In this document: one piece after another, positions 17,335 through 38,652 of the stretch
Layout: the number at the start of each line of letters is the position of its first letter
Position numbering within the stretch: the first letter of the stretch is position 1
From: Hyunsoonleella aquatilis
GTDB taxonomy: Bacteria; Bacteroidota; Bacteroidia; Flavobacteriales; Flavobacteriaceae
Assembly: GCF_014270105.1 (NCBI RefSeq)
Contig: NZ_JACNMF010000002.1
Coordinates: 496,001-560,000, forward strand
Reading direction: 5' to 3'
DNA: 64,000 nucleotides
Position numbers and translations under genes: made by a program
Notes under the pieces: generated by a model
Seen by the model: only the letters and a program-made list of their open reading frames with translations
What the model was told of the DNA's origin: nothing
Databases searched by the model: none

Positions 17335-17500
17335 TAGTGTAAAGGTAGGCTAAATAGGCAAAAACTGAAAATTCGCCGACCTTTTTTACTATATTGCACT
17401 TAGCTATTTGAGTGCCTAAAATTTTATGCGCACCAAAATGCCTAAATCCAATCCGAATAACCTTAAATACTTGAAACTTAAGCCACTTTAAGTACTGTAA

Positions 17501-18376: not shown

Positions 18377-18408
18377 AATTAAAATACCAAAAAAGGCAAA
18401 ACGATTCT

Positions 18409-18553
18409 ACACACCCCTTATCCCCATAGCTATCTTGATCTCCTTTTTAGGAGGGATACTCAAAACCTAAAAAAACTAACATCTAAAATGAAGCAATCAA
18501 AAAACACTGAACACAACGAGTCCCCTCTAAAAAGAGGGGATTTAGGGGTGTGT
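18409..18553. repeat. nested hairpins between rimK and the deacylase gene
   Basis: Outer arms ACACACCCC (18409-18417) and GGGGTGTGT (18545-18553) enclose a perfect inner hairpin TCCCCTCT-AAAA-AGAGGGGA (18521-18540) and a degraded copy of the palindrome (TCCCCATAGCTATC, 18421-18434). The run of T after 18553 means the outer structure could terminate plus-strand transcripts, but the long loop makes that uncertain. Confidence 0.5.
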
Positions 18554-18595
18554 TTTTCAAACATTCGGACCTTTAATCAAATTATTTGCGCCTAA

Positions 18596-19567: not shown

Positions 19568-19569
19568 AA

Positions 19570-20133
19570 ATGACCAAATCAGAACTTCGAAAAAAATATA
19601 AAGCACTACGCTCCGAACTTTCAGAAGATCAAATTGAGGACCTCAGTATGGCCATCGCCAATCAACTTTTAAAATTACCCATTTGGGATTTTTCCTTTTA
19701 TCATATTTTTCTATCCATCGAAGAACAAAAGGAAGTCAACACCGATTATATTTTGAACATTCTTTCAGGAAAAGACAAGAATATTGTGATCTCTAGAAGT
19801 AATTTTACAACAAACGAACTCACACACTTTTTATTGACCGATAACACCGTTATTAAAAAGAACAACTACAATATCCCTGAACCTGCTGATGGCATTGAAA
19901 TCTCAAACGATAAAATTGATGTGGTGTTTATACCACTTTTAGCTTTTGACAAAAAAGGCAATCGGGTGGGTTACGGCAAAGGCTTTTATGACACCTTTTT
20001 AGATAAATGCAACCCTGAAACCCTTAAAATCGGTTTGTCTTTTTTTGAAGCCGAAAATGAGATTAGTGATGCTTTTGAGGGTGATGTTGGGTTGGATTAT
20101 TGTATCACTCCGAAAACAATTTGTGCCTTTTAG
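19570..20133 (+). CDS. 5-formyltetrahydrofolate cyclo-ligase
   Basis: A 187-residue ATP-dependent enzyme that converts 5-formyl-THF to 5,10-methenyl-THF, rescuing folate from a dead-end form. Marks are the N-terminal KSELRKKYKALR helix, FIPLLAFDKKGNRVGYGKGFYD (about 122-141, the ATP/phosphate loop of the family) and normal length (180-200). It starts 2 bp after the deacylase stop. Its 3' end overlaps the convergent lspA stop by 4 bp, leaving no room for a separate terminator. Confidence 0.93.
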   Translation: MTKSELRKKYKALRSELSEDQIEDLSMAIANQLLKLPIWDFSFYHIFLSIEEQKEVNTDYILNILSGKDKNIVISRSNFTTNELTHFLLTDNTVIKKNNYNIPEPADGIEISNDKIDVVFIPLLAFDKKGNRVGYGKGFYDTFLDKCNPETLKIGLSFFEAENEISDAFEGDVGLDYCITPKTICAF

Positions 20134-21244: not shown

Positions 21245-24200
21245 TTAATGTTTAGTGATAAATAATTTGGTATTCACATCGTCAAAAGCAATTTCTATAC
21301 CATTATTTATCTGGTCAATTATTTCAAGTTCCTCGGTTAATGTTTCTGTTTTTATATACTCTATATTGGAGTCCACAGCTTGTTTGATCTGCTCGTCCTT
21401 TTGTAATTTTACATCTATTCTGTCGGTAACTTCAAAACCGGAATCCTTTCTTAAATTTTGGATACGGTTTACCAACTCCCTCGCAATACCTTCTTTTCGC
21501 AAGTCATCAGTTATTGTAACATCCAAAGCTACGGTTAAACTCCCTTCATTGGCTACTAACCAGCCTTCGATATCCTGAGAAGTAATCTCGACATCTTCGA
21601 GTCCTAAAGTAATGCTTTTTCCGTTTATTTCAACGTCAAAATTTCCATTTTGCTCGATTTTCTGAATATCCTCTGACGAAAACTGCATAATTGCCCCTGC
21701 AATCGCCTTCATATCCTTGCCAAAACGCGGGCCCAGCACCTTAAAATTCGGTTTTATTTTCTTAACCAAAATATCCGAAGCATCTTCAAGCAACTCAATT
21801 TCCTTTACGTTAACTTCATGTTTGATAAGATTCGAAACCGCCAAAATCTCTTCCTTTTGTTGCGTGCTATTTACAGGAATCATTATTTTTTGTAACGGCT
21901 GGCGTACCTTAATCTTTTCTTTAGCCCTTAACGACAATACAAGTGAAGAAATTGTTTGAGCAGCTTCCATTTTGCGTTCCAAACTTTTATCCACATAGGA
22001 TTCATCATACTTAGGGAAATCTGCTAAATGCACACTTTCAAAAGCTTCTTTATGGGTTACCGCATTCAAATCCAAATACAGTCTATCCATATAGAATGGT
22101 GCGATGGGCGCTCCCAATTTGGCAAGCGTTACCATACAAGTATATAACGTTTGGTAGGCTGAAATTTTATCGGTTTGATAATCGCCTTTCCAGAATCGTC
22201 TTCTACTTAAACGTACATACCAATTGCTCAAATAGTCCTGCGTAAAATCAGAAATTGCTCTGGCTGCCTTCGTGGGCTCATAATCGGCGTAATAGGCGTC
22301 AACCTTTTTAATCAAAGTATATAATTCTGAAAGAATCCATCGGTCTAATTCCGGACGCTCTTCTAACCGAATATCAGCCTCGGTGTAACTAAAATTATCC
22401 AGATTAGTATATAAACTGAAAAACGAATAAGTATTGTAAAGCGTTCCGAAGAATTTACGCTTCACTTCCTCAACACCGTCCAAATCAAACTTCAGATTAT
22501 CCCAAGGATTTGCATTTGAAATCATGTACCAGCGTGTGGCATCCGCACCATAGGTACTCAAAGTTTCAAATGGATCGACCGCATTACCTAAACGCTTAGA
22601 CATTTTTTGTCCGTTTTTGTCCAACACTAAACCGTTAGACACAACATTTTTATAGGCGATGGAATCAAAAACCATCGTTCCGATAGCATGCAAAGTGTAG
22701 AACCACCCACGTGTTTGGTCAACGCCTTCTGCTATAAAATTAGCTGGAAAGGTAACGCCATCATCGATAAATTCTTTATTCTCAAAAGGATAATGCCACT
22801 GAGCATAAGGCATAGAACCAGAATCGAACCACACATCAATCAAATCACTTTCACGCTTCATTGGTTTTCCTGATGGCGAAACCAAAATGATGTCGTCAAC
22901 AATATTTTTATGCAAATCGATTTTGGCGTAATTATCATCGGAATTGTTTCCGATTTCGAAATCAGCGAAAATATCAGCTTTCAAAACGCCTTCACTGACA
23001 GCTTTGACCATTTCGGCTTTTAACTCCTCAACCGAACCAATGCACAATTCTTCTTTTCCATCTTCTGTTCTCCAAATCGGCAAAGGAATACCCCAATAGC
23101 GCGAACGGGATAGATTCCAATCGTTGGCATTTGCCAGCCAGTTACCAAACCTACCTGTTCCAGTAGCCTTTGGTTTCCAATTAATAGTTTCGTTCAATTC
23201 GAACATCCTATCTTTCACATCCGTCACCTTGATAAACCAAGAATCCAATGGATAATAAAGAATCGGTTTATCAGTTCGCCAGCAGTTGGGATAGCTGTGC
23301 TTATATTTTTCAACCTTAAAGGCTTTATTCTCTTCTTTCAGTTTGATAGCAATTTCAACATCTACAGAACGTTCCGGAGCCTCGCCATCATTATAATACT
23401 CGTTCTTTACATACTTCCCTGCCAATTCCTTCATTTCGGGTCGGAAACGGCCTTGTAAATCAACTAATGGCACCAAATTCCCATTTTCATCCTTCACCAA
23501 CATCGGCGGCACTTCTGGCTTGGCTTGTTTAGCTACTAAAGCATCATCGGCACCAAAAGTCGGGGCTGTATGTACAATTCCAGTACCATCTTCCGTAGTA
23601 ACGAAATCTCCTGAAATAACCCTAAAGGCATTTTCGGGATTGTCGTTTGGAAGAGTATAAGGGAGCATTTGTTCATATTCAATTCCAACCAAATCCTTTC
23701 CAGCAAATTCCTTTACGATGTAATAGGGGATCTTTTTATCACCTGATTTGTAGCCAAGTAATTCAGACTTTTCTTCAACTTTACTAAACTTTCCAGAGAA
23801 CTGATAGTTTACCAACTTTTTAGCCAACACCACGTTTATTGGCTCAAACGTGTACTGATTATATGTCTCAACTAAAACATAATCAATTTTAGGACCGACG
23901 GTTAATGCGGTGTTACTTGGCAATGTCCATGGGGTGGTTGTCCATGCTAAAAAGTGAATATCACCTTCATTTTGTAAAAACTCAGGTAGTGATTCCGCTT
24001 TTGCTTTGAATTGAGCAACAATAGTTGTATCCGTAACATCTTGATATGTACCGGGTTGGTTCAATTCATGTGAACTTAACCCTGTTCCCGCTTTTGGTGA
24101 ATAAGGCTGAATCGTATAGCCTTTATAAAGAAGGTTTTTATCATAAATCTGCTTGAGCAACCACCAAACCGATTCCATATATTTAGGCTCATAAGTGATA

Positions 24201-24649
24201 TAAGGATCGTCCATATCCACCCAATAGCCCATTTTTTCGGTAAGGTCGTTCCATACATCGGTATATTTCATGACCGCTTTTCGACAGGCTTCGTTGTAAG
24301 CTTCGACTGAAATCGTTTTACCGATATCCTCCTTCGTAATACCCAATTCCTTTTCAACACCCAACTCAATTGGTAGTCCGTGAGTATCCCAACCTGCTTT
24401 TCGCTTTACTTGAAAGCCTTTCATGGTTTTATACCTTGGAAAAATATCTTTAATGGCACGCGCCAAAACATGGTGCACCCCGGGCAATCCGTTTGCTGAA
24501 GGAGGGCCTTCATAAAATACATATGGCTCATTCCCTTCCCTCGTAGTTACACTTTTTTCAAAAACGTTGTTTTCCTGCCAATAGTTGAGAATTTCCTCCG
24601 CTACTTTTGGTAAGTCAAGTCCTTTATATTCAGCAAATTTCGCGCTCAT
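21245..24649 (-). CDS. ileS: isoleucyl-tRNA synthetase, eukaryote-like (type 2) form
   Basis: A 1134-residue class I synthetase that charges tRNA-Ile. The HIGH-box region is PSANGLPGVHHVLAR (50-64) and KMSKRLGN lies near 683-690. The editing domain insert lies between, with WTTTPWTLPSNTALT. The C-terminus is long and lacks the four-Cys zinc finger of E. coli-type IleRS. The HIGH variant, length and C-terminus match the type 2 group shared by eukaryotes and many Bacteroidota, a class known for natural mupirocin insensitivity; that property is family knowledge, not shown here. It heads an operon with the DksA-like gene. Confidence 0.96.
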   Translation of the reverse strand: MSAKFAEYKGLDLPKVAEEILNYWQENNVFEKSVTTREGNEPYVFYEGPPSANGLPGVHHVLARAIKDIFPRYKTMKGFQVKRKAGWDTHGLPIELGVEKELGITKEDIGKTISVEAYNEACRKAVMKYTDVWNDLTEKMGYWVDMDDPYITYEPKYMESVWWLLKQIYDKNLLYKGYTIQPYSPKAGTGLSSHELNQPGTYQDVTDTTIVAQFKAKAESLPEFLQNEGDIHFLAWTTTPWTLPSNTALTVGPKIDYVLVETYNQYTFEPINVVLAKKLVNYQFSGKFSKVEEKSELLGYKSGDKKIPYYIVKEFAGKDLVGIEYEQMLPYTLPNDNPENAFRVISGDFVTTEDGTGIVHTAPTFGADDALVAKQAKPEVPPMLVKDENGNLVPLVDLQGRFRPEMKELAGKYVKNEYYNDGEAPERSVDVEIAIKLKEENKAFKVEKYKHSYPNCWRTDKPILYYPLDSWFIKVTDVKDRMFELNETINWKPKATGTGRFGNWLANANDWNLSRSRYWGIPLPIWRTEDGKEELCIGSVEELKAEMVKAVSEGVLKADIFADFEIGNNSDDNYAKIDLHKNIVDDIILVSPSGKPMKRESDLIDVWFDSGSMPYAQWHYPFENKEFIDDGVTFPANFIAEGVDQTRGWFYTLHAIGTMVFDSIAYKNVVSNGLVLDKNGQKMSKRLGNAVDPFETLSTYGADATRWYMISNANPWDNLKFDLDGVEEVKRKFFGTLYNTYSFFSLYTNLDNFSYTEADIRLEERPELDRWILSELYTLIKKVDAYYADYEPTKAARAISDFTQDYLSNWYVRLSRRRFWKGDYQTDKISAYQTLYTCMVTLAKLGAPIAPFYMDRLYLDLNAVTHKEAFESVHLADFPKYDESYVDKSLERKMEAAQTISSLVLSLRAKEKIKVRQPLQKIMIPVNSTQQKEEILAVSNLIKHEVNVKEIELLEDASDILVKKIKPNFKVLGPRFGKDMKAIAGAIMQFSSEDIQKIEQNGNFDVEINGKSITLGLEDVEITSQDIEGWLVANEGSLTVALDVTITDDLRKEGIARELVNRIQNLRKDSGFEVTDRIDVKLQKDEQIKQAVDSNIEYIKTETLTEELEIIDQINNGIEIAFDDVNTKLFITKH

Positions 24650-24770: not shown

Positions 24771-27700
24771 TTAATTTATAATGATCTTTTTCGTGATCAC
24801 TTGGTTCGCATCCGTCCTGAAACAGGCCACGTAGGCGCCCGTAGATGCGTCCGCCAGCTTCAGCCCCCTGTCAAGGGTGTCCCCCGATACGTTGTCCAGC
24901 TCCATAACGGACTGCCCTGTTATGCTGTACAGCGTGAATTTCGTTACCTCGCCGTTGAGTCTCTTCGCAAAGAGCATGTTGCTCCCCTTGTGGTAATAGA
25001 TATAGTCCTCGGATGCCTCGGATGCCTCGGTGCCCAAGGTACTGGCCTCCGACTGGAACACGATCTCAAACCGCTGGTTGAACTTCCCCTGCTGGGAGGA
25101 AAAACCGTAGGGCTGGCCGTTGGTAAGGTCGAAGTATTCCCCGTTCAGGTTGTCCTTTAGATAGATTTCTTGGTCGTCTTCAATATTTTCGGTTTCCGTT
25201 ATTTTTATTTCAAAGGTGTTGTTCCCCGAGGACTTGAAGTTCAACGGCACCACCTTGTCCGCCGTGATAGGCCCGTAGGCCATGATGTTCATGTTCTTGC
25301 CCTCCAGGCTGAGGCTCAGGTCGTTGTTGTTGATGTCGTCGCTCTCCGCGTCGAAGGCGTAGTCGAAGGCGTCCGATGTTTCATTACTGAAGCCCAACAG
25401 GAGCTCCCTCCTAGTGTCGGGGCCCGTTACCGAGCTGAACTCCAGGCGGACCCTTTTCATCGGGCCTTCGCCTTCTTCCGGTCCTTCCGACTTTGCGGAA
25501 GCCCCCTTCGACTTTTTGCCCCCGTTCTTGAAGAACGTGGAACCGTTGCCGTACGTGCCGTCGGCATCGGACTCTTTTATAAATAGGCGCTGGCCGTTGT
25601 TGAACTCGACCGTGCCGTCGGCAACGATCTCCGTGATGAAGCCCTGACCCACGGGCAGGTATCTTGTTGGAGTCTTCGTGCCGTCCTGATTGCCGTTGTT
25701 CGCGCCGTAGAAGCCCACGAACTGGTAGGCGCGCACCGAGCCGGTCTTGTTCACCTGGGCGTAGCCACCGTTGTACTCGTTAAGGTTGTGCGAGCTACCG
25801 CTCCACTGTTGCCACAGTTGCAACGTCCCGTCGATTACCCCGGCGTTGTCGTCGATAAACTGGTGGACGTCCAGTGCCGAGGGGTAGGGGTTGCCCAAAA
25901 GGTATTCCGTCTTCGTGGCATTGGCCACGGAGCCGGGACCGCCCCTGTCCGTTACGCTTATTAAAATAGTACCGTTGTTCGGCTTGCCCTCGAAGATATA
26001 CTGTTGCTCGGTGCCCGGTACGCCCGTGCCCTTCTGCGTATAGCCCACGCCGGGGCCCAGGTTGGTCGACGGGGCGATCTGCGCCCAGTCCCAGTAGGTC
26101 AGCCCGTTGATGAACGTATAGAGCCAATAGGTGCTGATGTTGCCGCTGGCCGTATAGTCCGAGGTAAACGAGCAGTTGAAGCCCGAGTCGTCCTTCAGCA
26201 TATCCAGGCTGAACGCCGTGTTGTTCGTATTGTTACTTGCCGTATTGTTGTCGGCCAAGCTTGTTGCTCCCTGCGATCCCACAGGGGAGGCCCAGTAGTT
26301 GTACCAGTAGGCGCTCGGTACGCCCTCCTGTCTCCGCAGTACCTTCCCGTCCGCAGAGGTCACAAGGTCGCTTTGATCGGTCTGAACCAGCTGGGAATCG
26401 CCCATCAGGTCAAGCGTGCCGTTGAGCTCCAGGTAGTAGCTGTTCTTTATTTCATTATCGCCCTGGACCGTCAATGTTGCTCCGGAATCCAGTACCAGGC
26501 CCAATGTGCTTACCGAAGTGGAAACGTCCATATCGTGGCCTACCTGGACGATGGAATATCCGGAATCGTTCAGCTCGCCCATGTCCCAGGCACTGCCCGA
26601 TGCCCAATTGGAGGTGGCATTCCAACTACCGGAACTGGATGTCCGGTAGGGCATCGGTGCCGTCTGCTCCTGTAGCGTAAGAATGTTGTACAGTTGAACC
26701 GTATGGCCGTTGGACGAGCGGTCGTCCGTCGTCGAATTGATAATGTCCGACATCGGATAATAGGCCTTCAGGCTGGACCACGATATGGTGGCTCCTGTAC
26801 TTTCGTCGCTGATGGGCTTTGGCACAACAGCACCCGTAACCAGTCCCGAAACTTCCTGTATCTCCTGGTACACCATCCTCCGTACCTGGGACGTCGTAAG
26901 CGCGGTATCAAAGACGCGGACCTCATCAATGTCCCCGTAAAAATACCCGGAATCCGACGACGAACTCTTACCGATGGTAAAGGCGTCCGTTGAGGCCGTT
27001 ATATTTGAGCTCAGCGCCCCGTCGTCGCTACCGGCCCTGAAATGCCCGTTCACGTATATTTTAAGCTTGCCCGAAGGTGCCGCATTATCAAATACCAATG
27101 CGATGTGCGCCCATACGTTGTCCGTCAGCGCATCCGAGCCCGAAAGGGAAAGGGTATGCCCGTTCAAACGAAAGGCCGGCACCTTCGAGCTGTTCACCTG
27201 CATGTGGAAGTCCCCCTGCTCCATGATCTTCCCGGTGCCCGAGAAGGAGGGGTCCACCCTTACCCAGGCCATGGCCGTCATCTGGCCGTAGCCGCTCAAA
27301 TCCAAACTGCTGTCCAGGTAATCGTCAACCCCGTCAAAATCTATCGTGGCGGAGGCGGGCGGGTTAGGGCTGAAAAGGTCGCGGTAGTCAAGGTCGCCAC
27401 CGATACCCAGATCGCCGTCACTATCGGGAAGTACCGAAAGGTCCGTAGGGTCGTCTATCTCATCGTTCGCATCGTTCGGGTCGTTGATGTCCGTGCCCTC
27501 GAAGAGCAGGTCCAGCCCGTCGTTGTCGGAGTCCGAGAACAAGGTGATGGCATCGGCCATGCCGTTCTCCTCGATGTCCAACAGTCCGTCGTTGTCGCTG
27601 TCAAGATCCAATATGTCAGGGTAGATGTCCGTGTCCGTGTTCACAACGCTGATACCGCTCCCGTAGGCAATGTCGATGCCGGTCTTGAACGAGACCGTGC

Positions 27701-28985
27701 CAGTGGGGGCCACGTAGCCAGCCGTGGACTGGCCCTCTACGTTGTCCGGGATACCGTCGTTGTCGCTGTCCAGGTCCAGGTAGTTGAACTTCCCGTCCCC
27801 GTCGAAGTCCTCGCCGGTCAATATGATCAGAGAATTGGCATTGAAATCCAAAAACTCGCACTGAGTGAAGGACATACCAAATTGTCTTTTTCTTGAAGAA
27901 GTTGTTGTACTGATAGCCTGCATACGCATGGTAAAGGAGTTGCCTATGAACTGGTAGTAGGCCCGCAGTACTTTTAAAGTAGAAAACCCAGGGCCTTCCT
28001 GCAATCCAGATGCACTAATTTGTATATCGCCACCTCCTAAGTCCAAAGTTTCTAGCGAAGTTGGGTTTTCCGTACCATATGCTGCAACATCATTGTAAAC
28101 TACAGATTCCTTCAAACTGCCACTTCCATCACAATCCCAAGTAATTCCATTGATTCTGAATATTTCCGTTGACGGTACTATTGTACCCGCATTTACAATA
28201 GTAAACTTAAATGTAGCACCCGGTGTACCTGTACCTGCAAACGTAAGTTCCGTTTGTAAATACGTCGGATTATCTACAGTGTCGTTGTCTATATTAGCAA
28301 TTGTAGTGTTAGTCAATTCGGTAACTTCCATCAAAACGTCGTAACCTTGAATTGAATTGCTGAAACGGTAAACTGCTCCGACCGCACCATCGGCTCCCGT
28401 ACTCGCCCCCGCATCATAGGTAGCATTCTCGAATGCAAGTTCCGGAAGGGTACATTCAAACCTTTCTTCTCCCAAATTCTCGACACCATCGGTTATCCCG
28501 TCTCCGTCATCGTCATAATCCAAATAATCCACCATCCCATCATTGTCCGTATCCAAAAGTCCGTTGCAGGTAGCATCACCACCGGAAACATTGAAATATA
28601 TGTTTTGTCCAGTACTACTTGCCCCGCTCCCATCATTATTGATCACTTCAACACCAGCGACAACCACAGAAACATAACTAGAAGCATCCCAGCCGTCATT
28701 GGCAATATCGTATAGTTTTATATAATAATTGTTCCCATTAGCGACGCAACCTAAATCGTACCTAGAACCGTAAGCGTCCGTTACGCCTTGCTGTGTGGCA
28801 ACGTAGCATTGATTGTCATCACAGATGGTAGTGATTAAATCATTGGTTGTGTTATAAACCTCAATTTTGTTTTCAAAAGCATTCCCAGGCCATTTCACCG
28901 TGATTCTCACATCGGAATTTTGAGCAAAGGAAAAACTGCACAGGAAAAAAACAAAAAGTAGACTAAAAAGTAACTTTGCTTTCAT
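24771..28985 (-). CDS. giant T9SS-exported LamG/TSP3 surface protein, copy A
   Basis: 1404 residues. Order: signal peptide (1-22), N-terminal beta module (about 23-138) with YDLGCVANGNNYYIKLYDIANDGWD, a TSP3-type calcium repeat (143-172), a variable domain (about 175-370), more TSP3 repeats (about 388-545, DSDNDG pattern), a LamG/concanavalin-like domain (about 547-705), a long beta-rich region (705-1325) and a C-terminal type A T9SS sorting domain (last 75, ending KKIIIN). It should be secreted across the outer membrane and anchored to the surface; LamG suggests carbohydrate or matrix binding. From residue 370 onward it is near-identical to copy B (29355-33566), and that part is GC-rich with CTG/CTC/GGC/GAC codons unlike its own AT-rich 5' third. 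Confidence 0.9.
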   Translation of the reverse strand: MKAKLLFSLLFVFFLCSFSFAQNSDVRITVKWPGNAFENKIEVYNTTNDLITTICDDNQCYVATQQGVTDAYGSRYDLGCVANGNNYYIKLYDIANDGWDASSYVSVVVAGVEVINNDGSGASSTGQNIYFNVSGGDATCNGLLDTDNDGMVDYLDYDDDGDGITDGVENLGEERFECTLPELAFENATYDAGASTGADGAVGAVYRFSNSIQGYDVLMEVTELTNTTIANIDNDTVDNPTYLQTELTFAGTGTPGATFKFTIVNAGTIVPSTEIFRINGITWDCDGSGSLKESVVYNDVAAYGTENPTSLETLDLGGGDIQISASGLQEGPGFSTLKVLRAYYQFIGNSFTMRMQAISTTTSSRKRQFGMSFTQCEFLDFNANSLIILTGEDFDGDGKFNYLDLDSDNDGIPDNVEGQSTAGYVAPTGTVSFKTGIDIAYGSGISVVNTDTDIYPDILDLDSDNDGLLDIEENGMADAITLFSDSDNDGLDLLFEGTDINDPNDANDEIDDPTDLSVLPDSDGDLGIGGDLDYRDLFSPNPPASATIDFDGVDDYLDSSLDLSGYGQMTAMAWVRVDPSFSGTGKIMEQGDFHMQVNSSKVPAFRLNGHTLSLSGSDALTDNVWAHIALVFDNAAPSGKLKIYVNGHFRAGSDDGALSSNITASTDAFTIGKSSSSDSGYFYGDIDEVRVFDTALTTSQVRRMVYQEIQEVSGLVTGAVVPKPISDESTGATISWSSLKAYYPMSDIINSTTDDRSSNGHTVQLYNILTLQEQTAPMPYRTSSSGSWNATSNWASGSAWDMGELNDSGYSIVQVGHDMDVSTSVSTLGLVLDSGATLTVQGDNEIKNSYYLELNGTLDLMGDSQLVQTDQSDLVTSADGKVLRRQEGVPSAYWYNYWASPVGSQGATSLADNNTASNNTNNTAFSLDMLKDDSGFNCSFTSDYTASGNISTYWLYTFINGLTYWDWAQIAPSTNLGPGVGYTQKGTGVPGTEQQYIFEGKPNNGTILISVTDRGGPGSVANATKTEYLLGNPYPSALDVHQFIDDNAGVIDGTLQLWQQWSGSSHNLNEYNGGYAQVNKTGSVRAYQFVGFYGANNGNQDGTKTPTRYLPVGQGFITEIVADGTVEFNNGQRLFIKESDADGTYGNGSTFFKNGGKKSKGASAKSEGPEEGEGPMKRVRLEFSSVTGPDTRRELLLGFSNETSDAFDYAFDAESDDINNNDLSLSLEGKNMNIMAYGPITADKVVPLNFKSSGNNTFEIKITETENIEDDQEIYLKDNLNGEYFDLTNGQPYGFSSQQGKFNQRFEIVFQSEASTLGTEASEASEDYIYYHKGSNMLFAKRLNGEVTKFTLYSITGQSVMELDNVSGDTLDRGLKLADASTGAYVACFRTDANQVITKKIIIN

Positions 28986-29201
28986 ATTAAGTAGATTTGG
29001 GCTTCTTAAAATTAACTTGTTATCAACGAATTACATATCTTTTCATCAAAATATGCTTGCCACTGCGATTATATAGACGAAATATATCAACCTTTATACC
29101 ATACAATAAACTCTACTGAAATTAAACTTGAGGGAAGGAAACTTCAATTACGATAACACACTTCTTTAGTACTAAACTAAAATGCAATACAATATTACTC
29201 C

Positions 29202-29237
29202 AAATTATCGACAAAAACAACAAAATAATCGACAAAA
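29202..29237. promoter_or_regulatory. tandem direct repeats, 21-bp period, upstream of copy A
   Basis: AAATTATCGACAAAA (29202-29216) and AAATAATCGACAAAA (29223-29237) differ at one base and repeat with a period of 21 bp, two turns of the helix. The same pair is conserved at 33744-33779 upstream of copy B. The arrangement suits a dimeric activator binding one face of DNA. The distance to the copy A start codon is about 217 bp. Confidence 0.55.
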
Positions 29238-29296
29238 TACACAAACAGCAAGATTTTGGTATTTAGATTGAAACTTAAAACCTTTACCCGTAAAAC

Positions 29297-29329
29297 AAAA
29301 AAGCCCAACAATCTAGCTGGGTCTTTTTT
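29297..29329 (-). terminator. terminator after T9SS copy B
   Basis: Minus strand stem AAAAGACCCAGC / GTTGGGCTTTT followed by T, 26 bp after the stop codon. It is flanked on both sides by A/T runs, so it could work in either direction. Confidence 0.7.
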
Positions 29330-29354
29330 GTTATGGTCGGTCGTTCTGTTCGGA

Positions 29355-32300
29355 CTAGTTAATAATGATCTTTTTCGTGATCACTTGGTTCGCATCCGTC
29401 CTGAAACAGGCCACGTAGGCGCCCGTAGATGCGTCCGCCAGCTTCAGCCCCCTGTCAAGGGTGTCCCCCGATACGTTGTCCAGTTCCATAACGGACTGCC
29501 CCGTAATGCTGTAGAGCGTGAACCTGGTCACGTCGCCCTCTAGCCTCTTGGCAAAGAGCATGTTGCTCCCCTTGTGGTAATAGATATAGTCCTCGGACGC
29601 CTCGGATGCCTCGGTGCCCAAGGTACTGGCCTCCGACTGGAACACGATCTCGAAGCGCTGGTTGAACTTCCCCTGCTGGGAGGAAAAACCGTAGGGCTGG
29701 CCGTTGGTAAGGTCGAAGTATTCCCCGTTCAGGTTGTCCTTTATATAGATTTCTTGGTCGTCTTCAATATTTTCGGTTTCCGTTATTTTTATTTCAAAGG
29801 TGTTGTTACCCGAGGACTTGAAGTTCAACGGCACCACCTTGTCCGCCGTGATAGGCCCGTAGGCCATGATGTTCATGTTCTTGCCCTCCAGGCTGAGGCT
29901 CAGGTCGTTGTTGTTAATGTCGTCGCTCTCCGCGTCGTAGCCGTAGTCGAAGGCGTCCGATGTTTCATTACTGAAGCCCAACAGGAGTTCCCTCCTCGTG
30001 TCGGGGCCCGTTACCGAGCTGAACTCCAGGCGGACCCTTTTCATCGGGCCTTCGCCTTCTTCCGGTCCTTCCGACTTTGCGGAAGCCCCCTTCGACTTTT
30101 TGCCCCCGTTCTTGAAGAACGTGGAACCGTTGCCGTACGTGCCGTCGGCATCGGACTCTTTTATAAATAGGCGCTGGCCGTTGTTGAACTCGACCGTGCC
30201 GTCGGCAACGATCTCCGTGATGAAGCCCTGACCCACGGGCAGGTATCTTGTTGGAGTCTTCGTGCCGTCCTGATTGCCGTTGTTCGCGCCGTAGAAGCCC
30301 ACGAACTGGTAGGCGCGCACCGAGCCGGTCTTGTTCACCTGGGCGTAGCCACCGTTGTACTCGTTAAGGTTGTGCGAGCTACCGCTCCACTGTTGCCACA
30401 GTTGCAACGTCCCGTCGATTACCCCGGCGTTGTCGTCGATAAACTGGTGGACGTCCAGTGCCGAGGGGTAGGGGTTGCCCAAAAGGTATTCCGTCTTCGT
30501 GGCATTGGCCACGGAGCCGGGACCGCCCCTGTCCGTTACGCTTATTAAAATAGTACCGTTGTTCGGCTTGCCCTCGAAGATATACTGTTGCTCGGTGCCC
30601 GGTACGCCCGTGCCCTTCTGCGTATAGCCCACGCCGGGGCCCAGGTTGGTCGACGGGGCGATCTGCGCCCAGTCCCAGTAGGTCAGCCCGTTGATGAACG
30701 TATAGAGCCAATAGGTGCTGATGTTGCCGCTGGCCGTATAGTCCGAGGTAAACGAGCAGTTGAAGCCCGAGTCGTCCTTCAGCATATCCAGGCTGAACGC
30801 CGTGTTGTTCGTATTGTTACTTGCCGTATTGTTGTCGGCCAAGCTTGTTGCTCCCTGCGATCCCACAGGGGAGGCCCAGTAGTTGTACCAGTAGGCGCTC
30901 GGTACGCCCTCCTGTCTCCGCAGTACCTTCCCGTCCGCAGAGGTCACAAGGTCGCTTTGATCGGTCTGAACCAGCTGGGAATCGCCCATCAGGTCAAGCG
31001 TGCCGTTGAGCTCCAGGTAGTAGCTGTTCTTTATTTCATTATCGCCCTGGACCGTCAATGTTGCTCCGGAATCCAGTACCAGGCCCAATGTGCTTACCGA
31101 AGTGGAAACGTCCATATCGTGGCCTACCTGGACGATGGAATATCCGGAATCGTTCAGCTCGCCCATGTCCCAGGCACTGCCCGATGCCCAATTGGAGGTG
31201 GCATTCCAACTACCGGAACTGGATGTCCGGTAGGGCATCGGTGCCGTCTGCTCCTGTAGCGTAAGAATGTTGTACAGTTGAACCGTATGGCCGTTGGACG
31301 AGCGGTCGTCCGTCGTCGAATTGATAATGTCCGACATCGGATAATAGGCCTTCAGGCTGGACCACGATATGGTGGCTCCTGTACTTTCGTCGCTGATGGG
31401 CTTTGGCACAACAGCACCCGTAACCAGTCCCGAAACTTCCTGTATCTCCTGGTACACCATCCTCCGTACCTGGGACGTCGTAAGCGCGGTATCAAAGACG
31501 CGGACCTCATCAATGTCCCCGTAAAAATACCCGGAATCCGACGACGAACTCTTACCGATGGTAAAGGCGTCCGTTGAGGCCGTTATATTTGAGCTCAGCG
31601 CCCCGTCGTCGCTACCGGCCCTGAAATGCCCGTTCACGTATATTTTAAGCTTGCCCGAAGGTGCCGCATTATCAAATACCAATGCGATGTGCGCCCATAC
31701 GTTGTCCGTCAGCGCATCCGAGCCCGAAAGGGAAAGGGTATGCCCGTTCAAACGAAAGGCCGGCACCTTCGAGCTGTTCACCTGCATGTGGAAGTCCCCC
31801 TGCTCCATGATCTTCCCGGTGCCCGAGAAGGAGGGGTCCACCCTTACCCAGGCCATGGCCGTCATCTGGCCGTAGCCGCTCAAATCCAAACTGCTGTCCA
31901 GGTAATCGTCAACCCCGTCAAAATCTATCGTGGCGGAGGCGGGCGGGTTAGGGCTGAAAAGGTCGCGGTAGTCAAGGTCGCCACCGATACCCAGATCGCC
32001 GTCACTATCGGGAAGTACCGAAAGGTCCGTAGGGTCGTCTATCTCATCGTTCGCATCGTTCGGGTCGTTGATGTCCGTGCCCTCGAAGAGCAGGTCCAGC
32101 CCGTCGTTGTCGGAGTCCGAGAACAAGGTGATGGCATCGGCCATGCCGTTCTCCTCGATGTCCAACAGTCCGTCGTTGTCGCTGTCAAGATCCAATATGT
32201 CAGGGTAGATGTCCGTGTCCGTGTTCACAACGCTGATACCGCTCCCGTAGGCAATGTCGATGCCGGTCTTGAACGAGACCGTGCCAGTGGGGGCCACGTA

Positions 32301-33566
32301 GCCAGCCGTGGACTGGCCCTCTACGTTGTCCGGGATACCGTCGTTGTCGCTGTCCAGGTCCAGGTAGTTGAACTTCCCGTCCCCGTCGAAGTCCTCGCCG
32401 GTCAATATGATCAGAGAATTGGCATTGAAATCCAAAAACTCGCACTGAGTGAAGGACATCATATACTTTCTAGTACTTGAGGAGGTTGTTGACTTAATAG
32501 CCTGCATGCGCATGGTAAAGGAGTTGCCGATGAACTGGTAATAAGCCCTTAACCAAGATAGCGTGGAATACCCATTTACGGTTACATCACCTGAAGTCAT
32601 CTCAATATTATTAGATCCTAAATCGGTAACCGTTAAACTCGATGGATTTTCAACACCATATGCAGCAACATCATGATACACAACGGATTCCAACAAACTT
32701 GAAGTACCATCACAATCCCATGTTATACCATTAACTCTAAAAATTTCCGTGGAGGGAGTTGTAGTGCCAGCATCAACAATTGTAAACATAAATGTAGCTC
32801 CGGGAGTTCCAGACCCAGTAAAAGTTAGTTCCGTTTGCAAATACTCAGCTATACCTGTAGAGTCATCATCTATATTTGAGATAGTGGTGTTAGTCAGCTC
32901 CGTTATTTCCATCAGTACATCATACCCCTGGATTGAATTGCTGAACCTATAAACTGCTCCAACTGATCCATCGGCTCCCGTACTCGCTCCCGCATCATAG
33001 GTAGCATTCTCGAATGCAAGTTCCGGAAGGGTACATTCAAACCTTTCTTCTCCCAAATTCTCGACACCATCGGTTATCCCGTCTCCGTCATCGTCGTAGT
33101 CCAGATAATCGGGCATTCCATCCCCATCTGTATCCAACAAACCGTTACAGGAAGCATCTCCTCCTGATACGTTAAAGTATAAGGTTTGACCTGTAGTGTT
33201 CGCTCCACTCCCATCATTGTTGATTACTTCTGAACCATTAACGGACACAGATACATGGCTAGTACCTTGCCAGCCATCATTGGCAATATCATATAGTTTA
33301 ATATAGTAGTTGTTCCCATTTGTAACACAGCCCAAATCGTATCTCACAAAATATTTGTCGTTGGAGGTAGCCCCAGTGCTGGTATAGCATTGTGAATCAT
33401 CACAAAGCGTAAGCAACAAATCATTAGAGGTATTATAAACCTCTATTTTATTTTCATTCGAATTTGAAGTCCACTTGACTGTTACCTCCAAAGGCGAATT
33501 TTGAGCCAATCCAATATTGAAAATAGAAAGAATTACAAGCAGGCATAAAAAAGGTCTTGTCTTCAT
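29355..33566 (-). CDS. giant T9SS-exported LamG/TSP3 surface protein, copy B
   Basis: 1403 residues with the same order of parts as copy A: signal peptide (1-21), N-terminal beta module with YDLGC and KLYDIANDGWQ, TSP3 repeat (142-171), variable domain to about 369, TSP3 repeats, LamG, long beta region, type A sorting domain ending KKIIIN. Residues 370 to the end differ from copy A at only a handful of positions (for example DYGYDAES for DYAFDAES, EIYIKD for EIYLKD, RLEGDVTRF for RLNGEVTKF). About 25440-27876 and 30024-32460 look identical base for base, with a constant offset of 4584. Residues 22-369 are diverged. A recent duplication or conversion made the pair. Confidence 0.9.
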   Translation of the reverse strand: MKTRPFLCLLVILSIFNIGLAQNSPLEVTVKWTSNSNENKIEVYNTSNDLLLTLCDDSQCYTSTGATSNDKYFVRYDLGCVTNGNNYYIKLYDIANDGWQGTSHVSVSVNGSEVINNDGSGANTTGQTLYFNVSGGDASCNGLLDTDGDGMPDYLDYDDDGDGITDGVENLGEERFECTLPELAFENATYDAGASTGADGSVGAVYRFSNSIQGYDVLMEITELTNTTISNIDDDSTGIAEYLQTELTFTGSGTPGATFMFTIVDAGTTTPSTEIFRVNGITWDCDGTSSLLESVVYHDVAAYGVENPSSLTVTDLGSNNIEMTSGDVTVNGYSTLSWLRAYYQFIGNSFTMRMQAIKSTTSSSTRKYMMSFTQCEFLDFNANSLIILTGEDFDGDGKFNYLDLDSDNDGIPDNVEGQSTAGYVAPTGTVSFKTGIDIAYGSGISVVNTDTDIYPDILDLDSDNDGLLDIEENGMADAITLFSDSDNDGLDLLFEGTDINDPNDANDEIDDPTDLSVLPDSDGDLGIGGDLDYRDLFSPNPPASATIDFDGVDDYLDSSLDLSGYGQMTAMAWVRVDPSFSGTGKIMEQGDFHMQVNSSKVPAFRLNGHTLSLSGSDALTDNVWAHIALVFDNAAPSGKLKIYVNGHFRAGSDDGALSSNITASTDAFTIGKSSSSDSGYFYGDIDEVRVFDTALTTSQVRRMVYQEIQEVSGLVTGAVVPKPISDESTGATISWSSLKAYYPMSDIINSTTDDRSSNGHTVQLYNILTLQEQTAPMPYRTSSSGSWNATSNWASGSAWDMGELNDSGYSIVQVGHDMDVSTSVSTLGLVLDSGATLTVQGDNEIKNSYYLELNGTLDLMGDSQLVQTDQSDLVTSADGKVLRRQEGVPSAYWYNYWASPVGSQGATSLADNNTASNNTNNTAFSLDMLKDDSGFNCSFTSDYTASGNISTYWLYTFINGLTYWDWAQIAPSTNLGPGVGYTQKGTGVPGTEQQYIFEGKPNNGTILISVTDRGGPGSVANATKTEYLLGNPYPSALDVHQFIDDNAGVIDGTLQLWQQWSGSSHNLNEYNGGYAQVNKTGSVRAYQFVGFYGANNGNQDGTKTPTRYLPVGQGFITEIVADGTVEFNNGQRLFIKESDADGTYGNGSTFFKNGGKKSKGASAKSEGPEEGEGPMKRVRLEFSSVTGPDTRRELLLGFSNETSDAFDYGYDAESDDINNNDLSLSLEGKNMNIMAYGPITADKVVPLNFKSSGNNTFEIKITETENIEDDQEIYIKDNLNGEYFDLTNGQPYGFSSQQGKFNQRFEIVFQSEASTLGTEASEASEDYIYYHKGSNMLFAKRLEGDVTRFTLYSITGQSVMELDNVSGDTLDRGLKLADASTGAYVACFRTDANQVITKKIIIN

Positions 33567-33849: not shown

Positions 33850-36800
33850 TTAATTTACAATTATCTTTTTGGTCAAAACCACATCAGAATCCGTTCTAAA
33901 ACATGTGATATAAGTCCCGGTTGAAACACTTGGAAGACTTAAACCACTCTCGAAGGTTAAGTTTGGTACATCGCTCATTTCAAAAACGCTTTGCCCAGAA
34001 ATGTTGTAAAGCGTGAATTTTTTAATGGGACCAGAAAGTTTTTTAGTAAACAGTAGGTTATTACGCATGTCGTAGTAAATAAAATTTTCATCCACTTGGA
34101 CCTCTTCCATACTTAGAGTACTTGCTTCAGACTGAAATACAATTTCAAACCGCTTATTAAATTTTCCTTGTCTAGATGAAAAATGGTAGGCCTCGCCACT
34201 GGTTAAGTCAAAATAATCACCTGTAAGATTATCGCGTAAGTATATCTCTTGATATTCACCGATATTTTCCATTTCAGTAACTTTTACCTCAAAAGCATTA
34301 TCCCCAGAGGATTTGAAATTTAGTGGCACCACCTTATCTATAGAAATTGGTCCATAGGCCTGCATATTAAAGTTTTTGCCTTCAAAATTTAGGTTCAAAT
34401 CGTTGTTATTGGAGCCGTCAGTTTCGGCATCATAGCCAAAATCAAAATCATCCGAAGTGTCTTTGCTAAAGCCCAAAAGCAATTCCCGTTTGGTTTTAGG
34501 CCCTTTTACTGAATTAAACTCCAAACGTATTTTTTGCATTTCGCCAAGATCTGCTTCCGAATCAGTACTCTGATTAGATTTTCCATTACCCCTTTTTGAA
34601 AATACCGAGCCGTTATTATAGCTTCCGTCCGCATCTGCCTCCTTGATAAACACTCGCTGACCGTTGTTGAATTCAACATTTCCATTTGCAACAATTTCCG
34701 TAATAAACCCTTGTCCAACCGGCACATATCTCGAGGGTATAACAGTACCCCGTTCTTCTCCAGTAGTCGCTCCGTTGAATCCCACAAATTGACGCGCTCT
34801 AACTGCTCCCAATTTATTTACTTGGGCGTATCCTCCATGGTATTCATTCAGGTTATGTGAGGCGCCACCCCACTGTTGCCAAAGCTGAATAGTACCACCA
34901 ATAATGCCTGCATTATCATCGATAAATTTATGAAGGTCTAGTGCTGATGGATACGGATTACCCATCAAGTACTCAGTTTTTGACTTACCCGCAACGGAAC
35001 CCGGGCCTCCCTTGTCTTGGACTTTTAACAAAATGGTGCCATTATTGGGTTTGCCTTCAAAAATGTATTGTTGCTCGTCAAATGGCACTCCTGTTCCCTT
35101 TTGGGTATAACCCACCCCAGGGTTCAATTTTGAAGTTGGGCTAATCTGCGCCCAATCCCAGTAGGAAGTACCATTCATATATGTATAAAGCCAATAGGTG
35201 CTTATGTTTCCATTGGCCGTGAAGCTGTTAGTAAATTCCTTATTAAATCCAGTTTCGTCCTTAATCATTTGCAGTTTGAAGTCCGAGTTGTTTGGGTTAT
35301 TTTTGGATGTGTTGTTGTCCGTTAAAACTGTCGCTCCAGCAGTCCCAATAGGAGATGACCAATAGTTGTACCAAAAAGGGTTTGATGTTCCTTCTTGTCT
35401 TCTCAGTACTTTTCCATCTTGGGAGGTCACCAAATCACTATTTTTGGTTTGTACCAACTGCGAATCGTCCATCAAATCTAAAGTCCCGTTCAATTCTAGG
35501 TAAAAACTGTTTCTAAATTCGTTGTCGCCATTAACAGTTATGGTTGTGCCTTCATCCAAAATTAGACCCGCCGTTTTTACTGAAGTATTGACGTCAAGGT
35601 CGTGGCTTACCTTTACAATTGAAAACTCAGAATTCGTTAATTGGTCGGTATCTTGCACATCACCCATCTCCCAATTTTCAACATCCTCCCAGCTTCCAGG
35701 GGCTTTGGTTACAAAAGGTATTGGCGCTGATTGCGCCTTTACGGTTTCGGCATTAAAAATTGTGGCCATATGCTCATATGACGAAAAATCTTTGGTAGAT
35801 CCGCTAATGATGTCGTTCATTTTATAATAGGCCACTAAACTGGACCAAGGAATTGTCGCTCCGGTATCATCGTCTTTTATTAACTTTGGAATAGTTACAC
35901 CTGCAACGCTATTGGCACTTTCGGTTATTTCTTGATATACCATTTTTTGCACCTGACTTTCTGTAAGCGCCATATCAAAAAGCCTAACCTCATCCACGTC
36001 GCCGTTAAAAAGCTCCTTATTGTTGGTTACATTTTTACCAATTGTGAATAGATTCGTGGTTTTACCTATGGCTTCAGAAAACAATTTGTCATTGCCCGTT
36101 TTGGCCAAATGGCCATTGATAAACAATTTTAATTTTTGATTTTTTATCGAACTGTGGAAAGTAATGGCAATATGAGTCCATCTACTATTTTGAAGTCCCT
36201 CTAAAATCTCTCTGGAATTGGCAACAATCGATTTTCCATTAACGCGTGCTACCACCCTTTTATGCTTATTTACCTTAATCTTCATTTTACCCTGACTGAT
36301 TAATGTGCCTGTTTCAGTAAAACTTTTGTCCAATTTCACCCAAGCCATTATGGTCAGCTGATTGTAACCACTTAAATTTAGATCACTCTCTAAATAATCG
36401 TCAATTCCATCTAAATCAATGGCCGCGGAAGCTGGTGGATTGGGCGTAAACATATCTTCAAGGTCTGGGATACCGTCGCCGTCTGTGTCTTTATCTGGGT
36501 CTGTATGGGTTACAAAATTAATGTTGTAGTCCTCAATTTCACCGGATTGATATTTGTAATCGCAACTGCTGAAGTTTTGCTTTTTTCCCGTTCTGAACCC
36601 AATTCGAATAACCGATTTACTGGTCTTTACCGATTTTGGGATTTCTATTTTAAAAGGGATAATTATTGACTTGTTCCCTTTGGAATTTGTCTTATCCTCT
36701 GCCCAGAAAATGAAGCGTTCGCCCTCATCGTCAAAGCTCTTATTTCTATTCAAATCCATCCAAACTACCAAGGCATTCTCTTTGGTGTTCCACCCATTTA

Positions 36801-37062
36801 GGGTGACCGTAACTTCTCCTTTTAATGTCTCTCCAATTTTTATATTTATGCTGTTCAGGTCTGAAAAATACGAGTAGCCACCTGTTTTTCCTTTGCTCGT
36901 GTTTGAAAAATCACCTATTGAGACTTTGGAAATGTAGTTGGTATTGAACTTGCCAATATTCTTGGGCTGGCAAAACTGGCCAAAAACGTTGGCAAATGCG
37001 AAAAATGTTAAAAAAAGTAGGCTATAAATTCTGAAATCGGGTTGAGTATCATTTCTTTTCAT
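33850..37062 (-). CDS. T9SS-exported LamG surface protein with GEVED N-terminus, copy C
   Basis: 1070 residues. Order: signal peptide (about 1-29), GEVED-type domain (about 45-185, closing with SGEIEDYNINF), a short TSP3 unit (DTDGDGIPD, about 193-201), LamG domain (about 213-375), the same long beta-rich region as copies A and B, and a type A T9SS sorting domain (last 75, ending KKIIVN). The shared part is roughly 70-80 percent identical to A/B at protein level in stretches compared by eye, but the DNA is AT-richer (43-45 percent GC in two 60-base lines counted) and uses host-like codons. The N-terminal module is unrelated to that of A and B. It is probably the resident paralogue. Confidence 0.88.
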   Translation of the reverse strand: MKRNDTQPDFRIYSLLFLTFFAFANVFGQFCQPKNIGKFNTNYISKVSIGDFSNTSKGKTGGYSYFSDLNSINIKIGETLKGEVTVTLNGWNTKENALVVWMDLNRNKSFDDEGERFIFWAEDKTNSKGNKSIIIPFKIEIPKSVKTSKSVIRIGFRTGKKQNFSSCDYKYQSGEIEDYNINFVTHTDPDKDTDGDGIPDLEDMFTPNPPASAAIDLDGIDDYLESDLNLSGYNQLTIMAWVKLDKSFTETGTLISQGKMKIKVNKHKRVVARVNGKSIVANSREILEGLQNSRWTHIAITFHSSIKNQKLKLFINGHLAKTGNDKLFSEAIGKTTNLFTIGKNVTNNKELFNGDVDEVRLFDMALTESQVQKMVYQEITESANSVAGVTIPKLIKDDDTGATIPWSSLVAYYKMNDIISGSTKDFSSYEHMATIFNAETVKAQSAPIPFVTKAPGSWEDVENWEMGDVQDTDQLTNSEFSIVKVSHDLDVNTSVKTAGLILDEGTTITVNGDNEFRNSFYLELNGTLDLMDDSQLVQTKNSDLVTSQDGKVLRRQEGTSNPFWYNYWSSPIGTAGATVLTDNNTSKNNPNNSDFKLQMIKDETGFNKEFTNSFTANGNISTYWLYTYMNGTSYWDWAQISPTSKLNPGVGYTQKGTGVPFDEQQYIFEGKPNNGTILLKVQDKGGPGSVAGKSKTEYLMGNPYPSALDLHKFIDDNAGIIGGTIQLWQQWGGASHNLNEYHGGYAQVNKLGAVRARQFVGFNGATTGEERGTVIPSRYVPVGQGFITEIVANGNVEFNNGQRVFIKEADADGSYNNGSVFSKRGNGKSNQSTDSEADLGEMQKIRLEFNSVKGPKTKRELLLGFSKDTSDDFDFGYDAETDGSNNNDLNLNFEGKNFNMQAYGPISIDKVVPLNFKSSGDNAFEVKVTEMENIGEYQEIYLRDNLTGDYFDLTSGEAYHFSSRQGKFNKRFEIVFQSEASTLSMEEVQVDENFIYYDMRNNLLFTKKLSGPIKKFTLYNISGQSVFEMSDVPNLTFESGLSLPSVSTGTYITCFRTDSDVVLTKKIIVN

Positions 37063-37293: not shown

Positions 37294-38652
37294 TTATACT
37301 AAAAGCCCCACCAAATCCTCAATTTTTGAAATAAGTTGTATTTTAATTCTTGTGCCTTTCAGTGAAATTTTATTGTATTTAGACACAAAAATGGTCGAAA
37401 ACCCAAGCTTTTCGGCTTCCAAAATACGTTGTTCCACACGCTGGACTGGGCGAATTTCTCCAGAAAGCCCCACTTCCGCTGCAAAGCAAAAGTCGTTAAG
37501 AAGGGGCTCGTCCTCGTTTGAAGACAATATAGCCGCAACAACGGCCAAGTCAATCGCTGGGTCGTCAACAGTTATGCCTCCCGTTATATTTAAAAACACG
37601 TCTTTGGCTCCCAATCGAAACCCGGCGCGTTTTTCTAAAACGGCTAAAAGCATGTTCAAACGTTTGGCATTAAAACCTGTTGCACTGCGCTGTGGCGTAC
37701 CGTAAACTGCTGTACTGACCAAAGCTTGAACTTCAATCATCAATGGGCGCATACCCTCTAAAGTAGCCGCAATAGCATTGCCGGACAACTCTTCTTCCTT
37801 TTTCGAAATCAAAATTTCCGACGGATTGGACACTTCTCTTAATCCCGAACCTTGCATTTCATAGATACCCAACTCATTCGTGGAGCCAAAACGGTTTTTA
37901 TGTGCACGAAGAATTCGAAATACATGGTTTCTGTCACCCTCAAACTGCAAAACGGTGTCCACCATATGCTCCAAAATCTTTGGGCCAGCAATATGCCCAT
38001 CCTTTGTAATATGGCCTATAAGTATGACGGGGGTAGCAGTTTCTTTGGCAAATTTTATGAGTTCTGCTGTACACTCTTTTATTTGTGATATGCTTCCGGC
38101 GGATGATTCAATGTAATCGCTATGTAAGGTCTGAATGGAATCCACAATAACAATATCGGGTTCCAAAGCCTCAATTTGTTTAAAAATATTTTGGGTTTTT
38201 GTCTCCGTTAGTATGAAGCAATTTTTGCTTTTGGGATTGATACGCTCGGCTCGCATCTTGATTTGTTTCTGGCTTTCTTCACCTGAAACATATAGTGTTT
38301 TGAAAGGCAGTTTTAAAGAAACCTGAAGTAAAAGGGTACTTTTCCCAATACCTGGTTCACCACCTAATAATATTAACGACCCTGGTACGATTCCTCCACC
38401 TAAAACACGGTTGAACTCGCCATCCAAGCTATTCAGCCTTTCTTCCTCCGAAACATCAATATCTTTTATACGTAAGGGTTTTGAAACTCTTTTTGTGGGG
38501 TTTGAATTTGTCTTCCAATCTGCCTTTTCTGGTTTTTGAACCACCTCTTCGGCAATGGTGTTCCACTCCTTACAGGAATTGCACTGCCCCTGCCATTTGG
38601 CATATTGCGCCCCACAGTTTTGGCAGAAAAATGTTGTCTTTACTTTTGCCAT
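37294..38652 (-). CDS. radA: DNA repair protein RadA
   Basis: A 452-residue RecA-related branch-migration ATPase that processes recombination intermediates. It has an N-terminal four-Cys zinc finger (C10, C13, C24, C27), Walker A GEPGIGKST (98-106), a Walker B-like IVIVDSIQT (167-175), the RadA-specific KNRFG (252-256) and a C-terminal Lon-protease-like domain (about 280-452, without need for a catalytic Ser). Length is normal (450-460). It is last in the panC-panD-flippase-esterase-radA minus-strand series. Unusually for this phylum, GGAGAGGAA directly precedes its ATG, within a hairpin-forming leader. Confidence 0.97.
   Translation of the reverse strand: MAKVKTTFFCQNCGAQYAKWQGQCNSCKEWNTIAEEVVQKPEKADWKTNSNPTKRVSKPLRIKDIDVSEEERLNSLDGEFNRVLGGGIVPGSLILLGGEPGIGKSTLLLQVSLKLPFKTLYVSGEESQKQIKMRAERINPKSKNCFILTETKTQNIFKQIEALEPDIVIVDSIQTLHSDYIESSAGSISQIKECTAELIKFAKETATPVILIGHITKDGHIAGPKILEHMVDTVLQFEGDRNHVFRILRAHKNRFGSTNELGIYEMQGSGLREVSNPSEILISKKEEELSGNAIAATLEGMRPLMIEVQALVSTAVYGTPQRSATGFNAKRLNMLLAVLEKRAGFRLGAKDVFLNITGGITVDDPAIDLAVVAAILSSNEDEPLLNDFCFAAEVGLSGEIRPVQRVEQRILEAEKLGFSTIFVSKYNKISLKGTRIKIQLISKIEDLVGLLV

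Follow-up and report, generated by a model that had tools for sequence, protein, structure and literature searches.

We examined a 64,000-nucleotide stretch of the Hyunsoonleella aquatilis genome (GCF_014270105.1, contig NZ_JACNMF010000002.1, positions 496,001 to 560,000; hereafter the window), in which two large tandem paralogues, gene A (24771..28985, 1404 aa) and gene B (29355..33566, 1403 aa), share an exactly identical, GC-rich block beneath diverged 5′ parts (coordinates are those of the window, and all features located by them lie on the minus strand). Concerted evolution of A and B by gene conversion is close to certain, and a GC bias of that conversion is the probable cause of the composition of the shared tract. 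Homologous gene conversion would have copied the C-terminal two thirds of one gene over those of the other time and again, the 5′ thirds having diverged beyond the similarity that permits it. If mismatches arising in these exchanges were resolved to G or C more often than to A or T, every round would ratchet silent sites toward GC, and could thus have produced a tract with 76% GC at third codon positions (GC3) in genes that started at 36-37%. Homogenisation is exact, elevated GC3 coincides with the homogenised tract, this coincidence is repeated in nine genomes, substitutions on four lineages are biased from AT to GC and, in the window genome, the tract does not match the favoured codons. The mechanism is ordinary concerted evolution; the mark it has left on composition is unusual, strong and repeated.

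The identical block occupies 25414..27875 in A and 29998..32459 in B. It is an exact match of 2,462 bp at a constant offset of 4584, slightly longer than the approximately 2.4 kb that a first-pass annotation of this DNA had proposed. Identity drops away within about 150 bp upstream of 27876, an abrupt divergence that the same annotation had described, and the diverged 5′ parts follow (27876..28985 in A and 32460..33566 in B). At the 3′ end of A (24771..25413) there are 27 mismatches to B in 643 bp, and the sequence is still GC-rich (GC3 of the last 100 codons is 76% in A and 81% in B). With W standing for A or T and S for G or C, these 27 copy-private differences comprise 11 WS, 6 SW, 7 SS and 3 WW. 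A second, short homogenised island lies at codons 151-200 (28386..28535 in A, 32967..33116 in B), with an amino acid identity of 0.98, a third-position identity of 0.90 and GC3 of 0.44 in A and 0.46 in B. Abrupt tract edges within otherwise diverged paralogues characterise concerted evolution by gene conversion, as do copies that are closer to each other than to their orthologues. A and B are sisters in the protein tree and 99% identical to each other, no other protein found exceeding 68-69% identity to them, and the other homogenised pairs described below also sit together.

Base composition follows the same boundaries. The block has a GC content of 57.3%, compared with 39.3% for the window outside A and B, and GC3 is 76% in the tract, 37% (A) and 36% (B) upstream of it, and 40% in neighbouring genes. 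Counted per 100 codons, GC3 is 65-87% from codon 401 on and 30-52% in codons 1-400; it is 39% in gene C, the non-homogenised third paralogue (33850..37062, 1070 aa), and 37% in the adjacent ileS. The earlier description of a GC-rich shared part with AT-richer 5′ thirds and third paralogue is therefore accurate.

The two copies come from a 21-contig draft assembly. A tandem loop in a short-read graph can produce identical copies, so that one copy might have been duplicated, or two slightly different copies given one consensus, during assembly. However, the upstream parts and intergenic DNA of A and B differ, 27 differences occur in their 3′ parts, and the same pattern is found in two single-contig genomes (G208 and G371). 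Thus, assembly duplication, named by the first-pass annotation as a possible refutation, is unlikely, and we give hardly any credence to an artefact of either kind, which would also leave the jump in GC3 unexplained.

Codon usage was compared with five genes around ribosomal protein L2 of the window genome (L2 identified by PF00181; the other four are presumably ribosomal, as judged from context). Codon fractions of the tract are uncorrelated with those of these genes (r = -0.03), whereas the N-termini of A and B (0.72) and gene C (0.73) resemble them. The tract prefers CTG, GGC and CAG, and the ribosomal-region genes TTA/TTG, GGT and CAA (GC3 25-38%). Its codon adaptation index is 0.353, compared with 0.58 for neighbouring genes. 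In this one genome, and relative to these five reference genes, the GC-rich tract is independent of the favoured codons; its usage is unlike that of presumed highly expressed genes, a check that had been proposed from the sequence. Selection on codon usage, strengthened by conversion or by high expression, could account for an effect largely limited to third positions (GC at first and second positions is 47% in the tract and 44% outside it in the window genome, and 44% compared with 43-44% in H. flava), and also for intergenic DNA within tracts that mostly lacks a rise in GC (see below). Yet the presumed highly expressed genes of the window genome favour other codons, and the shift begins mid-gene, at or near the conversion edge, and we consider such selection very improbable as the cause.

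We then compared the locus among relatives that include Hyunsoonleella flava, H. ulvae, H. pacifica and Jejuia pallidilutea (Hyunsoonleella/Jejuia group). A member of the C-terminal profile is found at the ileS locus in 13 of the 16 relatives in which ileS was located, in one piece in 11 and as contig-end pieces in two (G019 and G010). No profile member was identified at this locus in G004 and G011; in G003, what adjoins ileS is just a cut, more distant gene, the profile member being located on a different contig. In G007, the array gene neighbouring ileS (L037, 2728-8169) contains a long run of N. At E 1e-150, 44 of the 397 Flavobacteriaceae genomes searched carry the profile, and 72 named loci were added to the survey. 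The resulting set consists of 127 genes at 91 loci, which are not equivalent to genomes as some genomes give two or three (e.g., G371, G019, and G201); 15 loci repeating the contig of another locus, members below 400 bits and three loci with no member (L067-L069) were left out. Among the 90 loci besides the window, and within the stretch fetched, ileS is present in 70, radA in 73, both in 62 and neither in nine.

A pair counted as homogenised when its C-terminal domain contained a 300-bp window with an identity of 95% or more. By this definition nine genomes carry a homogenised pair with a measurable tract, each with at least one of ileS and radA at the locus. One further locus, L161, overlaps L160 (both from G371) and passes the window test but has no tract by a stricter rule; it was kept in the survey and in the larger of the tree counts given below and omitted from the independent-pair tests, the locus comparison and the smaller tree count. 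In all nine genomes GC3 is higher in the tract than upstream of it in both copies, by 6 to 42 points, which answers the first-pass call for a comparison of this locus across relatives. The strongest rises are in the window genome (G000; 76% in the tract compared with 37% and 36% upstream in copies A and B, respectively), H. flava (63% compared with 20% and 23%, in a pair 99.94% identical over 1,639 bp) and, from a different genus, Winogradskyella ouciana (56% compared with 24% and 19%). Corresponding values are 31% and 17%/15% in the single-contig genome G208, 30% and 19%/17% in Algibacter sp., 50% and 44%/36% in the single-contig genome G371, 33% and 25%/21% in H. ulvae, 32% and 23%/23% in Tamlana sargassicola, and 30% and 23%/25% in Flaviramulus multivorans.

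The C-terminal domain as such is not GC-rich. Measured per locus as the GC3 of this domain minus background, the nine homogenised loci range from +6.6 to +37.6 and the 83 non-homogenised locus entries have a median of -1.0 (Mann-Whitney p = 4e-6); relative to its own N-terminus, the non-homogenised domain has a median difference of +2.6 (82 entries). GC3 is raised at least 5 points over background in 18 of 18 homogenised tree rows and in 11 of 97 others, and among the nine genomes longer tracts show a larger excess (Spearman 0.74, p = 0.024, n = 9). The same direction is seen where repeats lie within a single open reading frame (ORF). Internal tandem repeats that are 97-98% identical in a 1288-codon ORF (L194, G012:C10, 18981-19818) have GC3 of 54-57% compared with 35-37% outside, and internal repeats of a 2929-codon ORF on one contig (L195, G036, 16177-19901) have 35-38% compared with 29-31%. 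A second set of tandem paralogues, about 35% identical to A (L178-L197, from G000 to G009 and relatives; e.g., L178, G000:C16:66000-85900), includes no two-ORF pair with 200 bp at 94% identity, only the internal repeats of L194 and L195 just described, and gave little as a replicate.

The protein tree (121 rows, quick search, with support from the Shimodaira-Hasegawa-like approximate likelihood ratio test, SH-aLRT, only) requires at least eight changes of the homogenised label when the L161 rows are removed and 10 when they are included. H. flava and H. ulvae are adjacent, and their homogenisation may have a single origin. Homogenised pairs mostly occur among low-GC relatives. Counted as independent pairs with the background measure, 4 to 7 comparisons support a rise in GC3 and none oppose it (median p 0.016).

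Substitutions at third positions with a conserved amino acid are strongly directional. On the A/B lineage 120 changes are from W to S and one is from S to W; the ratios are 61:1 for H. flava, 73:2 for W. ouciana and 49:3 for G208. Expressed per W site, the W-to-S rate is 0.79 for A/B, compared with 0.20 in three of four controls and 0.36 for C, which was the fourth. For H. flava it is 0.52 (controls 0.14-0.37), for W. ouciana 0.45 (0.12-0.19) and for G208 0.26 (0.11-0.21). In the four genes examined G rises as well as C, so the change is not strand-specific. GC is therefore raised where the sequence recombines, and AT-to-GC changes exceed GC-to-AT changes on the converting lineage, as GC-biased gene conversion predicts.

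The first-pass annotation had suggested that a relative of higher GC supplied a GC-rich C-terminal segment, which duplication or conversion then placed in the second copy. The conversion part of this proposal is upheld. Acquisition would account for the sharp compositional edge (57.3% against 39.3% GC) and for tract codon fractions that are uncorrelated with those of neighbouring genes (r = 0.04), but A and B lie within a 20-row clade of mostly low-GC copies from their own genus and near relatives (SH-aLRT 97), and the nearest rows outside the pair have GC3 of 25-38%. The closest proteins found are about 60-61% identical over 1004 aa, and nothing above 60% identity turned up outside the window genome in 395 genomes of the order and 395 of the phylum (two best candidates scored per genome). 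Over the C-terminal 599 aa the best identity is 68-69%, with no closer GC-rich donor among the genomes searched. Protein branch lengths are ordinary (e.g., the H. flava stem is 0.14 compared with 0.12 for H. pacifica), and separate GC-rich imports would be required for the homogenised pairs of nine genomes, some at the same site in other genera. An origin by import thus appears quite unlikely.

A different possibility is that repair synthesis at exchanged repeats errs from AT to GC, with no bias in which strand wins. In our tests, such recombination-linked mutagenesis should leave a footprint indistinguishable from that of biased conversion. It would, however, require an unusual spectrum, as mutation is described as universally AT-biased by Lassalle et al. 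(2015; PMC4450053), and we regard it as unlikely. We infer that mismatch resolution is biased, i.e., GC-biased gene conversion, rather than AT-to-GC-biased mutation during recombination, and that repair enzymes would be responsible.

Several observations weigh against GC-biased conversion as the explanation. The 11 raised rows among the 97 non-homogenised ones include single copies with no second close copy in the genome (G009, L087, L089, L095, L106, and L123). These raised rows could reflect lost or collapsed partners or exchange between strains. Also among the 11 is one of two diverged copies in G001 (L040, 11493-15896), which has a domain GC3 of 46% compared with 25% in its neighbour, and no further close copy was found elsewhere in that genome. 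In H. ulvae (36%/38% compared with 33%), F. multivorans (32%/28% compared with 30%) and T. sargassicola (35%/34% compared with 32%), GC3 beyond the downstream edge of the present tract is much the same as inside it; these regions could be older tracts. A broken array in G019 is ambiguous, being raised relative to its N-terminus (38% and 29% compared with 22%) and not relative to background (34% compared with 33%). Contig ends within arrays were checked as potential hidden counter-examples: those of C78 and C83 in G019 overlap terminally by 127 bp, and those of G003 and G010 have no sequence in common and are uninformative. In the metagenome-assembled genome Bacteroidia Co_bin.381 (L094, 1-1398 and 7562-11761) C-terminal GC3 is 59% and 71% over a background of 42%, in copies that are only 80% identical and are perhaps former conversion partners. 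Intergenic DNA within tracts is not raised at L082 (292 bp, 26% compared with 27%) or L159 (81-82 bp, 24-26% compared with 23%); L128 is the exception (63 bp, 41% compared with 31%), and L164, with 4-5 bp, is too short. With the N-terminus measure (+8), 4 to 6 independent pairs support a rise and 0 to 1 oppose it (median p 0.125). The cut-offs for window identity (0.95) and for the rise in GC3 (+5 and +8 points) were set after the data had been seen. The copy-private differences between A and B cannot be polarised, which leaves room for a mutation bias linked to recombination. Finally, the direction of conversion was not observed.

The constant C-terminal part beneath diverged N-terminal parts is as first described. 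The N-terminal thirds are diverged, as claimed, but they are not unrelated modules; they are paralogues of near-equal length with 50-98% amino acid identity per 50 codons. For codons 23-365 the nonsynonymous rate (dN) is about 0.19 and the synonymous rate (dS) 1.05-1.59, and the resulting dN/dS of 0.12-0.18 places both N-terminal parts under purifying selection. This ratio does not support selection on the N-termini for surface variation, the role initially suggested for the pair. An antigenic-variation cassette system, which would have one expressed copy and silent partial donors, does not fit the gene structure: A, B, and C are all full-length ORFs with a type IX secretion system (T9SS)-type tail, and the part that A and B share is the constant rather than the variable one.

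Published claims about GC-biased conversion in bacteria conflict. Lassalle et al. (2015) argue for it, PMC8223754 cites Bobay and Ochman (2017) for the opposite view, and a 2026 preprint on M. tuberculosis (PMC13061034) states that GC content is not associated with the frequency of conversion between paralogues in that species. As in Lassalle et al. (2015), sequence that recombines has the higher GC3 of its genome, and codon optimality does not account for this. Their comparison was between core genes with and without evidence of recombination, and neither “paralog” nor “tandem” came up in a word search of their text; here, tandem paralogues of one chromosome exchange sequence, edges are visible inside genes, and the excess reaches about 42 points. 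In the concerted evolution of prokaryotic paralogues described in PMC6053082, copies that share a genome likewise resemble one another more than they resemble orthologues, whether silent or non-silent sites are compared. GC content, GC3 and GC-biased gave no match in a word search of that paper, whereas homogenisation here is partial and accompanied by a shift in composition. Primate X-chromosome palindromes (PMC8981503) are likewise long-lived and nearly identical within a genome and have undergone GC-biased conversion, but they are mammalian palindrome arms rather than bacterial tandem genes. Searches of the open-access literature turned up no account of tandem paralogues in bacteria whose conversion is GC-biased and whose tract edges are visible.

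On balance, we favour the view that strongly GC-biased conversion between tandem paralogues in Flavobacteriaceae has raised silent-site GC across half a gene to 56-76%, over a genome background of 28-40%, and that GC3 along a duplicated gene would serve as an odometer of past recombination. If true, this would be repeated within-chromosome evidence for a process on which published claims disagree. Three controls come with the locus, namely the stretch of each gene that has escaped conversion, the genes next to it, and orthologues without homogenisation at the equivalent position, and the tract edges are visible. An old correlation thereby becomes measurable in a family with cultured strains. 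Moreover, high GC and foreign-looking codons do not by themselves establish that a block arrived by horizontal transfer, and a detector based only on composition could call this tract foreign.

A and B most probably encode surface proteins that are secreted by the T9SS and carry a lectin-like LamG domain. A has a diverged N-terminal part, a LamG domain, a long conserved C-terminal region and a T9SS-type tail, and B has the same architecture. Of the three C-terminal elements initially proposed (TSP3, LamG, and a T9SS signal), LamG was recovered in both A and B by a Pfam scan (PF13385; in A, residues 552-701, 26883..27332, 80.9 bits, within the identical block). The T9SS tail (TIGR04183, cut-off 23) scores above the cut-off in B (23.3) and C (26.4), which thus carry the C-terminal type A sorting domain of T9SS cargo, and just below it in A (21.8). 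TSP3 was not returned for A, B, or C by Pfam or NCBIfam at E 0.001; DxDxDG-like motifs are seen by eye only. The predicted structure of the C-terminal 599 aa is poor (predicted local distance difference test, pLDDT, 53.8; predicted template modelling score, pTM, 0.30). This constant part would serve export and anchoring, and its uniformity would be a tolerated by-product of conversion. As in other T9SS-secreted LamG proteins of Flavobacteriaceae, PF13385 was detected in nine of nine proteins scanned and TIGR04183 or PF18962 tails in several; the protein family itself has nothing unusual about it.

Gene C, which is 60% identical to A over 887 aligned positions, encodes GEVED and LamG domains. 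The array is bordered on its 3′ side by ileS, encoding isoleucine--tRNA ligase (21245..24649; TIGR00392, 999 bits), and on its 5′ side by radA/sms (37294..38652; TIGR00416, 590 bits). The latter is an annotated DNA repair gene, and its position beside the array is probably a coincidence.

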